Shown here: positions 31,431 to 37,149 of the stretch, piece by piece
Layout: each line of letters opens with the position of its first letter
Position numbering within the stretch: the stretch's first letter is position 1
The notes under the pieces: model-generated
Told to the model about the DNA's origin: nothing
Seen by the model: only the letters and a program-made list of their open reading frames with translations
The model's database searches: none
Position numbers and translations under genes: made by a program
Origin: Thermoanaerobaculia bacterium
GTDB lineage: Bacteria > Acidobacteriota > Thermoanaerobaculia > Multivoradales > JAHZIX01
NCBI GenBank assembly: GCA_027069135.1
Contig: JALXFE010000290.1
Coordinates: forward strand, 1 to 56,660
Reading direction: 5' to 3'
Length of the DNA stretch: 56,660 nt

Positions 31431-34079
31431 TCAGCCCGTGTTGCGCATCCCCGCTGCGACACCGTTGAAGGTCGCGAGAAGGGCATCCTCGAGGCTTGGT
31501 TCCGGCTCCGCTCCCCGCAACCGGCGTAGGAGCTCCGCCTGCACCAGGTTGATGGGATCCACATAGGGATTCCGGACACTGATCGACCGAGCGAGGACCG
31601 GAGCCCCGGCGAGAAGGCTCTCGTTGCCGGTCACCTGTAGAAGTCGGGAGGTCGCGTCCGCAAGGCGCTGACGAAGCATCTCTCCGAGAGGCTGGAGATC
31701 TTCGGGAACCAGGATCTGATCGTAATACCGGGCGACCCGCTCGTCTGCCTTTGCGAGAACCATCTCGATCAGATCCATGGTCGAGCGGAAAAAGCGCCAG
31801 CCGCGATACATCTCCTCGAGAAGCTCGGCGTCCGCAACTTTCAGACCGTCGCCGGTCCCCAACCAGGATGGCAGCATCAGACGAGTCTGGGTCCAGGCAA
31901 ACACCCAGGGGATGGCCCGCAGGCTGTCGACGCCCCCTCCCGCCTTGCCCGGTCGACGAGCGGGCCGGCTGCCGATATTGAGCTTGCCCAACTCCACCTC
32001 CGGGGTCGCGGTGCGAAAGTAGCGGACGAAATCCGGATGCTCCCGGACGATGGCCCGGTAGCCTTGGCAAGCGGCGTCGGCGATACGGTCCATGGCTTCG
32101 CGCCAAGCCGGTGCAGGCTCCGGCGGCGGCGCCAGGCTGGCTTCCAGGGTGGCCGTGGTGTAGATCTCCAGAGTTCGTAGAGCGATGCCCGGTAACCCGA
32201 ATTTTGTCCGGATCATCTCCCCCTGCTCGGTGACCCGCAGGCGGCCCGCAATCGATCCCGGCGGCTGACTCTGGATGGCCAGGTAGGTGGGGCCGCCCCC
32301 TCGGCCCACGGTCCCTCCTCGGCCATGGAATAGCGTCAGCTCAACGCTCAACTCCTCGGTCACCCGGGCCATCTCCTCCTGTGCCTTGTAGAGCTCCCAG
32401 GAAGCCGCCAGACGCCCGGCGTCCTTGGCGGAGTCGGAGTACCCGATCATCACTTCCTGGCGGTTCCCGAAGACCGCCCGATAGGGATCCACCGCCAGGA
32501 GCTTGCGCAGGGAGTCACCGGCGGCACGCAAGTCGTCCCGGGTCTCGAAAAGGGGGACGATCCGCAGCGGCGTTTCCATCCCCGCTTCCCGCTGCAGGAG
32601 CTGGACCGCCAGGACGTCGGAAGCTCCCTGGGCCATCGAGATGACGTAAGCCCCCAGGGGCTCGTTGCCGATCTCCCGTAGCAGGTGGAAGGTGTCGAGG
32701 ACATCCTGCTCCCGATCTTCGAGCTCCAGACCCCTAGGGATCAGCGGTCGCCTTCCCGCCAGCTCCTGGGCCAGGAACGTGATCCGCCGATCCTCGTCCC
32801 AATCTTCGTAGGTCCCCAGGCCCAAAGCCTCCGTGACACGGCTCAAGAGGGCAGCGTGGAGGCCCGAATCCTGGCGGATATCGAGACGCACCAAGGTCAA
32901 CCCGAAGGTCGTCAAACGCCTCAAGAGATCCTCGAGACGCCCCTCCACCAGCTTCCCGCAGCCGGTCTCGCGAAGGGATCGGTCACAGAGCTCCAGGGAC
33001 TCACGAAGCTCGGCCGTCGTCTCGTAATGAGGCGCTTCGTCCGGGAGTTTGCCGTCCAGGAATCGATGCATCCGTTCCCGGGTCGCCTCCAGGCGAGCCT
33101 CCACCCGGCGCAAGAGCTCCCGGTAGGGCTCCCGGGCTCCCGGGGTCTTGGCTACGAGCTCCGGTGAGGCCCGGCGTAGGGAAAGCTCCGAGCGCAGCGC
33201 ACGTACTTCCCGAAGGTAGAGATCCGTCCCCTGCCACCGGGCCAGCCAACAGGCCCGTCGGGTGACGTCCGGGGTGACGTTGGGATTGCCGTCCCGGTCT
33301 CCTCCCATCCACGAGCCGAAGCGGATCGGAGCGGCGGACCGGGGAAGGCCCCGTCCGGTATGGCGTTTGAGAGCTCGATCGAGATCCTTGAGAGCCCGAG
33401 GCAGCGCGTCCCAAAGGGACTGCTCGAAGGTGACCAATCCGCCTTTGACTTCGTCCAAGGGTGTCGGTTTCTTATGCTGAAGCTCATCCGTTTCCCAAGC
33501 TGCGATGATCTCCCGGCGCAGCCCTAGGGCGATCTCCTCCCGCTCCACCGCCGTACGGTCCGGCAGATCCCGCAAGGCGAGAAGCTCCGCGATGCGGCGA
33601 TACTTCAAGAGCAGGGTCCGCCGGACCACTTCCGTCGGGTGGGCCGTGAGCACCAACTCGACCTGCTGCTCGGTGATCGCCTTCCACAAGGCTTCCGGGG
33701 CGACCCCACCGCCGATCAGCCGCGAGAAAACTTCCTCGTAGGAGCCCCGTTGGGCGGAGGCGTCCGGCCCGGATTGGTAATCCCGGCGGCGGCGCACCCG
33801 ATGGTGTTGTTCGGCGATATTGGCGAGGGTGAGAAAATGGCTGAAGGCCCGAGCCGCCGGCAGAGCATCCCCTACCTCCATTCCTGCAAGAAGGCGCCCG
33901 AGGCGCTCGAAATCCTCGTCACTCCCGGCCCGTCCGGCTTTGGCCAGGGCGCGGATCTCCTCAACGGTCTCGAAAACCTTGTCTCCCGCCTGGCTCTTGA
34001 GGGTTTCTCCCAGGAGCTGCCCCAGGAGGCGCACATCGTCTCGAAGGGGTTTGTGGGGGTCGGGGGAAGCCTTGCTCAC
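31431..34079 (-). CDS. ppc: Phosphoenolpyruvate carboxylase
   Basis: PEPC makes oxaloacetate from PEP and bicarbonate to refill the TCA cycle. The 882-residue length is typical. The catalytic His lies in VLTAHPTEVVRRT (143-155, H147), the second active-site segment is FHGRGGTVGRGGGP (about 580-595), and the protein ends with the family's conserved RNTG, the C-terminal tetrapeptide needed for activity. The start is a GTG at 34079 with AAGGAG six bases upstream. It is divergent from the MscS gene, with 163 bp between, and convergent with the membrane/pseudopilin-like gene. It complements the PDH operon at the PEP-pyruvate node. Confidence 0.97.
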   Translation of the reverse strand: MSKASPDPHKPLRDDVRLLGQLLGETLKSQAGDKVFETVEEIRALAKAGRAGSDEDFERLGRLLAGMEVGDALPAARAFSHFLTLANIAEQHHRVRRRRDYQSGPDASAQRGSYEEVFSRLIGGGVAPEALWKAITEQQVELVLTAHPTEVVRRTLLLKYRRIAELLALRDLPDRTAVEREEIALGLRREIIAAWETDELQHKKPTPLDEVKGGLVTFEQSLWDALPRALKDLDRALKRHTGRGLPRSAAPIRFGSWMGGDRDGNPNVTPDVTRRACWLARWQGTDLYLREVRALRSELSLRRASPELVAKTPGAREPYRELLRRVEARLEATRERMHRFLDGKLPDEAPHYETTAELRESLELCDRSLRETGCGKLVEGRLEDLLRRLTTFGLTLVRLDIRQDSGLHAALLSRVTEALGLGTYEDWDEDRRITFLAQELAGRRPLIPRGLELEDREQDVLDTFHLLREIGNEPLGAYVISMAQGASDVLAVQLLQREAGMETPLRIVPLFETRDDLRAAGDSLRKLLAVDPYRAVFGNRQEVMIGYSDSAKDAGRLAASWELYKAQEEMARVTEELSVELTLFHGRGGTVGRGGGPTYLAIQSQPPGSIAGRLRVTEQGEMIRTKFGLPGIALRTLEIYTTATLEASLAPPPEPAPAWREAMDRIADAACQGYRAIVREHPDFVRYFRTATPEVELGKLNIGSRPARRPGKAGGGVDSLRAIPWVFAWTQTRLMLPSWLGTGDGLKVADAELLEEMYRGWRFFRSTMDLIEMVLAKADERVARYYDQILVPEDLQPLGEMLRQRLADATSRLLQVTGNESLLAGAPVLARSISVRNPYVDPINLVQAELLRRLRGAEPEPSLEDALLATFNGVAAGMRNTG

Positions 34080-36382: not shown

Positions 36383-36934
36383 TCATTTTGCTTCCAGGGT
36401 GATCCCAAGGCCATCTGCCAGACGGTTGTAGTAGTTGAACAGAGCGGTGACCTGGACGATGTCATGGATGGCGGTGTCTGAAAATCCCGTCCGCCGCAGG
36501 CCTTCGACGTCGGCCTCTTCCATGGTTTCCGGCCGGCGGGTGAGCTTTGCGGCGTAGTCGAGCATCGCACGGTCCGCGGGAACGAGAGCCGCGGTTCGGT
36601 AGTCGCTCCGGATCGCTGCGACGAGGGCTTCTCCACCCTCTTGATCTTGGACCTCAACCCGGAGGTCCTGAGCGTGTTCATCGATTCAGTAGTGGCACGC
36701 ATTGATTTTGGAGACGATGACCGCGATCATCTCTCTCTGGGCACGGGAAAGGGGGCTTTCCCTAGAATGCATGACCTCCGTGTAGAGAGCGGTCGAAGTG
36801 CGAAGGATCTGCGGCCGGAGACTCTGGCAGCGGATCACGTTGAAGACTTTGCCAGCGCGTTTGACGGCCGCGCTGTACAGCCGGGCCAGGAGACCTTCCG
36901 CCTCGGCAGGATCTATCGTACGAATCCAAGTCAT
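36383..36934 (-). CDS. AhpD-like peroxidase-related selenoprotein (in-frame TGA = Sec)
   Basis: The gene reads as one 184-codon frame with a single internal TGA at 36688-36686. The first 82 residues (MTWIRTIDPAEAEGLLARLY...) and the last 100 (...FNYYNRLADGLG) both match the carboxymuconolactone decarboxylase/AhpD peroxidase-related family, and no other stop or frameshift separates them. Reading TGA as selenocysteine gives C80-H81-Y82-U83-I84-D85-E86-H87, which is exactly the family active site CxxCxxxH with Sec for the second Cys. A SECIS-like stem-loop starts 17 bases after the TGA. AhpD-like selenoproteins are known in bacteria. The product would be a thiol/selenol peroxidase or reductase of 183 residues. 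The ATG at 36934 follows AGAGGGG. A nonsense-mutated pseudogene is the alternative but does not explain the hairpin. No selA, selB, selC or selD lies in the window. Confidence 0.85.
36649..36668 (-). promoter_or_regulatory. Bacterial SECIS element
   Basis: On the minus strand GGACCTC, loop CGGGTT, GAGGTCC forms a perfect 7-bp stem with a six-base G-rich loop containing GG and GT. It lies inside the coding sequence, 17 bases after the TGA at 36688-36686. Position, size and loop guanines agree with the SelB-binding hairpins of bacterial selenoprotein mRNAs. Confidence 0.75.
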
Positions 36935-37149
36935 CTGATACCCCTCTTTCTTGGGCCTATAGTAGGCGGGACTTGAAAGCCATTGTAGAAGCTCCTGTGA
37001 TCGCTGGCCCTGGAGCCTCTAGAGTCCCTCGGGGCTCGCAGAAGCCTTGGGCCCCCGAACCGCCTGTGGTAGAAACGACCGGTTCGACCGGCGAGTTCCC
37101 TCGGCTCACGGACGACCGCTTCCCGACCTAATTTTCCAGGAGATCGACC

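Follow-up and report, generated by a model that had tools for sequence, protein, structure and literature searches.

Two open reading frames on the minus strand of the window (the whole stretch of 56,660 nucleotides analysed here) are, we conclude with high confidence, the halves of one selenoprotein gene, in which an internal UGA is decoded as selenocysteine (Sec) through SelB, tRNA-Sec and a hairpin, and whose product is an AhpD-like redox enzyme. The gene is complete (36383..36934, minus strand) and reads as a single frame of 183 codons plus a terminal TGA, running from the ATG at 36934-36932 to the stop at 36385-36383, with one in-frame TGA at codon 83 (36686..36688) as its sole interruption. 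The original prediction had given the coordinates of the two frames correctly, and had described them, as confirmed here, as one continuous frame broken only by TGA. It had also expected standard annotation to produce two fragments, and a mechanical ORF list of the window does split the gene, containing only 36934-36686 (82 aa) and 36565-36383 (60 aa from the first ATG). A purine-rich AGAGGGG (36941..36947, minus strand), 6 nt before the ATG, is a probable ribosome-binding site. When the window was scanned for other read-through frames, the top two joined long adjacent ORFs of the same frame, and a Cys-type motif at the TGA was absent from the higher-ranked frames.

The joined protein matches the NCBIfam family TIGR01926 ("peroxidase-related") over residues 3-179 with 154.2 bits, above the curated cut-off of 81.8 bits, and also matches CMD PF02627. 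Alignments with the PDB homologues 2pfx, 3c1l and 6k40 (E 5e-29 to 6e-26) span the TGA and place it on the second Cys of their CxxC motif, as had been predicted together with the assignment of both halves to one AhpD/peroxidase-related protein. An AlphaFold model of the joined protein (mean pLDDT 95.2) displays the AhpD fold, with TM values of 0.81-0.90 against 3c1l, 2pfx, 6k40, 2prr and 2oyo (0.86-0.89 for 3c1l, 6k40, 2prr and 2oyo, and 0.84-0.89 for 3c1l, 2pfx and 6k40); these five proteins share the fold and the CxxC site, are 29-38% identical to the window protein, and have Cys where it would have Sec. The AhpD-related (seleno)protein family NF041238, which belongs to the same superfamily and likewise contains CxxU selenoproteins, is matched with 77.6 bits, below its cut-off of 175, and the window protein is accordingly not a member.

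The active site can be read as C80-H-Y-U83-IDE-H87, in which U83 is the probable Sec and Cys80 (36695..36697, minus strand), its partner in CxxU, presumably the resolving Cys. Glu68 (36731..36733), Cys80, Tyr82, Sec83 and His87 (36674..36676; both on the minus strand) are invariant across 28 aligned sequences, with Cys counted as Sec, and their spacing is identical to that of the five-residue relay of PA0269 (Glu36, Cys48, Tyr50, Cys51, His55), a protein with weak peroxidase activity whose relay has been likened to Glu118, Cys130, His132, Cys133 and His137 of Mycobacterium tuberculosis AhpD (PMC3141380). The proton-relay residues Glu68 and His87 thus correspond to Glu36 and His55 of PA0269, and to Glu118 and His137 of the M. 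tuberculosis enzyme. Both of these proteins share the arrangement Glu-(x11)-Cys-x-Tyr/His-Cys-(x3)-His with the window protein, but have Cys in place of its Sec, and M. tuberculosis AhpD differs from it in topology and shows only weak overall similarity.

In the mechanism that we propose, SelB with Sec-tRNA(UCA) would insert selenocysteine at the internal UGA under the direction of a hairpin located just 3' of it inside the coding sequence, and the UGA at the end of the frame would terminate the protein. The product would be a 183-residue, all-helical AhpD-like enzyme of the carboxymuconolactone-decarboxylase superfamily (TIGR01926), with Glu68, Cys80, Tyr82, Sec83 and His87 occupying the places of the AhpD proton relay. 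The Sec83 selenolate, activated by His87/Glu68, would attack peroxide or another oxidised substrate, Cys80 would then resolve Sec83 by forming a selenenylsulphide with it, and the Cys80-Sec83 pair would be re-reduced by a thiol system of the cell. Judged from the sequence, peroxide or disulphide reduction is the likely role, and Sec in place of the second catalytic Cys should provide a faster attacking group.

The enzyme could also be a selenoprotein that is not a peroxidase but instead reduces disulphides or carbon-halogen bonds in the manner of the debrominase Bmp8, which has the same fold; we consider this unlikely, though it deserves some weight. The model resembles Bmp8, a dehalogenating relative of the fold (6ohi/6ohj, going by the PDB titles), with an E-value of about 1e-5 and a TM of 0.78-0.79, and the DUF1223 protein with a CSSC motif that is encoded just upstream in four relatives points the same way. 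Against this, AhpD-type peroxidase-related proteins are the nearest in both sequence and fold, identity to Bmp8 is only 18%, and the relay residues fit AhpD exactly.

Across the clade, no conserved operon partner that would name the substrate was found. The DUF1223 gene lies directly upstream on the same strand in G033, G040, G018 and G044 (L114, L115, L126 and L127), an arrangement that spans two families and in which the genes abut in L115; as a partner of the selenoprotein it is a weak hint. In the window it is not adjacent to the selenoprotein gene, whose neighbours encode an MscS channel, a sortilin/BNR protein and a protein of 277 aa that matches nothing in Pfam. Searches of the window with Rfam (gathering threshold) and for tRNA genes gave no matches. 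A phosphoenolpyruvate carboxylase-like gene at 31431-34079 of the window occurs in only 26 of the 59 genomes of the order and is absent from the same-genus genome G001. Contamination of the window contig was considered and rejected, as this gene shares 69% identity with that of the same-family genome G002 and no more than 46% with the others, so that the contig fits the family.

The genome to which the window belongs (G000; 7.17 Mb in 626 contigs, 97.5% complete) encodes the whole machinery for selenocysteine. We found selA (C342:83459-84814, 554 bits), two copies of selB (C342:81060-82943 and C273:15747-17630, 350 and 339 bits), two of selD (C342:80030-80953 and C320:8966-9889, 362 and 355 bits, both themselves containing a TGA), and two of the tRNA-Sec gene selC (C342:83033-83127 and C185:5396-5491, 69.7 and 66.8 bits), both with the anticodon TCA according to ARAGORN; on C342 the genes are clustered in the order selD-selB-tRNA-Sec-selA (80030-84814). 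The absence of selABCD from the genome, named beforehand as a result that would speak against the prediction, is thus contradicted for all four genes.

Within this single metagenome-assembled genome, selB, selD and tRNA-Sec exist as two sets that diverge from each other (L095-L098; C342, C273, C185, C320). The copies on C273, C320 and C185 resemble those of the same-family genomes G001 and G002 (SelB 65/63%, SelD 82% to G001, tRNA 93/94%) more closely than do the copies on C342 (SelB 52/53%, SelD 67% to G001, tRNA 86/84%), which suggests that the C342 set was acquired or that C342 is a contaminant contig. Whatever its origin, the lineage has the Sec pathway, because the same-genus G001 has all four sel genes. 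Among 396 genomes of the phylum, SelB was detected in 43 of the 46 with the gene versus 213 of the 350 without it (Fisher p 2e-6). The exceptions are G310 with a partial SelB, G137, which is 75% complete, and G320, in which SelB was not found despite 97% completeness and an intact TGA-containing AhpD homologue (L142, G320:C9). Eight further gene-owning genomes outside the set of relatives analysed, mostly non-acidobacterial, carry SelB above the cut-off in all eight cases and tRNA-Sec in seven.

A putative bacterial SECIS hairpin is located at 36649..36668 on the minus strand, with a 7-bp stem (GGACCUC/GAGGUCC) and the 6-nt loop CGGGUU. It fits all constraints of the published bacterial model (PMC13188914), which asks for a loop of 3-9 nt, a stem of 4-16 bp, a G within the first two loop positions, a spacing of 16-37 nt between UGA and loop, and a minimum free energy of at most -7.5 kcal/mol: the G is at loop position 2, the loop starts 24 nt past the UGA, and the energy is -12.6 kcal/mol for a 49-nt fold and -11.1 kcal/mol for the hairpin alone. 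Across 31 aligned relatives, 99.1% of the cells of the hairpin were paired, and compensatory changes were found at pair 21-40 (CG in 15, GC in 14) and at pair 24-37 (CG in 23, UA in 6, UG in 2). None of 500 shuffles equalled the observed number of cells paired, of cells changed on both sides, or the covariation score, and sliding the helix along the alignment destroyed it. The full 7-bp helix is present in 29 of the 31 relatives versus 5.2 expected from synonymous codon shuffling, a comparison among related sequences, in which the changes in the pairs are therefore not independent events. The check for a SECIS element suggested with the prediction has accordingly returned both a fit to the model and compensatory change.

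Folding energy was rejected as evidence for the SECIS. The region folds with an unexceptional energy (z -0.94; synonymous shuffles p 0.35), which is not significant by itself, and hairpin-length shuffles for each sequence of the window type were also weak (median p 0.18). With the raw folding energy unremarkable, the case for a SECIS rests on position, fit to the model and covariation among related sequences, and it is the specific conserved helix, not energy, that is the telling evidence for the hairpin.

A second TGA-containing paralogue (L002) is present in the same genome at C126:23900-24427, with its TGA at the same codon, and the SECIS hairpins of the two types differ. That of the paralogue type sits earlier, at positions 14-30, with the loop GGG, and shows no covariation inside its main group; in L002 itself it consists of 6 bp at 15-29 with -7.3 kcal/mol as an isolated hairpin, marginal with respect to the energy criterion. 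In the rarer members L066, L079, L083, L090, L092 and L094 the stems occupy nearly the same position, with sequences that are quite different.

That the UGA is instead read through as Cys, Trp or another residue, by a partial code change or a Cys-loading variant of the machinery, is very improbable. The Cys found in distant homologues would agree with it; the genome, however, also uses TGA as a normal stop codon, including at the end of the window gene, the hairpin matches the Sec model, and selA and selD, which act with selB and tRNA-Sec in the synthesis and insertion of Sec, are present.

Decoding of codon 83 as Sec agrees with its distribution among relatives. In the order, 53 of 59 genomes gave a match, the strong matches have one internal TGA (one row also has TAG), and the first stop-free match appeared only at E 1.6e-33. 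In the phylum sample of 396 genomes, all 53 matches at E<=1e-35, from 46 genomes, contain an internal TGA, with no Cys form among them. Two relatives that seemed to have a double TGA (G059 and G074) proved to have a single one each in the aligned frame. A check at the codon level found TGA at codon 83 in every near locus checked and TGC or TGT in distant ones, the latter being homologues from Opitutales, Bacteroidota and Humibacillus. The named relatives with TGA comprise Acidobacteriota, Nannocystis and other Myxococcota, an Oligoflexia bacterium, a Planctomycetota MAG and an Actinomycetota MAG, and orthologues in Myxococcota, Planctomycetota and Bdellovibrionota have it at the same codon. 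As proposed at the outset, the TGA aligns to the Cys of the PDB proteins and of distant homologues; TGC or TGT in close relatives, which would have told against the prediction, was seen nowhere in the close clade examined.

The part 3' of the TGA has a dN/dS of 0.15-0.41 in 13 pairs, similar to the upstream part, a rough estimate as dS is high in some pairs, which indicates purifying selection. A pseudogene or an assembly error, in which the TGA would be a true nonsense mutation or a base-calling mistake leaving only a truncated protein, as the two fragments from mechanical ORF calling might suggest, is excluded in practice, because the TGA is conserved at the same codon in dozens of independently assembled genomes from several phyla, among them Nannocystis isolates with a complete genome, and because the sequence past it, with its invariant active-site His87, is under purifying selection. 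The gene, as far as sequence can tell, is very probably a genuine selenoprotein gene.

In the tree, the window protein is placed in a clade (support 99/98) whose 30 sampled rows are all Sec, and the paralogue L002 belongs to a second group of mostly Sec rows in which Cys forms also occur. The same-genus and same-family genomes G001-G003 are without the window-type paralogue and possess only the other TGA type. With midpoint rooting, one change divides Sec from Cys rows, three long-branch rows being uncertain; since the root is not known and the Cys rows are few, no direction, from Sec to Cys or the reverse, is claimed. One speculative reading, to which we give a low probability, is that this AhpD subfamily is obligately Sec, spread over several phyla without Cys counterparts, and serves a reaction for which Cys would be insufficient, not generic peroxide removal; examples would be a reductive dehalogenation like that of Bmp8, or the repair of one particular oxidised substrate together with a DUF1223 partner. 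Cultured Nannocystis strains (L060, L062-L065) carry the window-type Sec-AhpD, and SelB and tRNA-Sec are present in both of those tested, L060 and L063.

That AhpD-like selenoproteins are already known as a class had been stated from the start and is documented: the "AhpD-like protein, TIGR01926, CxxU" is tabulated as a selenoprotein family in a 2026 review (PMC13188914) and was first found in a 2005 study of the Sargasso Sea (PMC1088965), and AhpD-like 1 (COG2128) is among the most frequent selenoproteins in the GOS data (PMC2398784). A 2006 survey listed three selenoprotein families and four selenoproteins for Acidobacteria (PMC1794560). The window gene shares with the known family (TIGR01926/COG2128; example MCB9421940.1) the NCBIfam assignment, the position of Sec in CxxU and a bacterial SECIS past the UGA, and is a new member from Acidobacteriota within a supported clade that is all Sec in our sample. 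Its novelty is low, because TIGR01926 with CxxU is already a tabulated family, and lies, as anticipated, in the gene and its lineage; new here are the member, the lineage, the supported all-Sec clade of 30 sequences, and two paralogue types with differing SECIS hairpins. No mention of selenoproteins together with Nannocystis or Thermoanaerobaculia was found in the open-access library searched.

Annotation that treats TGA solely as a stop would fragment the window gene and many of its relatives in Acidobacteriota and Myxococcota. The occurrence of two different Sec-AhpD paralogues in one genome suggests that selenium-based redox chemistry is common in this large, little-cultured phylum. With the all-Sec clade, a suitable set of sequences exists for studying why certain enzymes never go back to Cys, a question that the cultured Nannocystis strains make testable.
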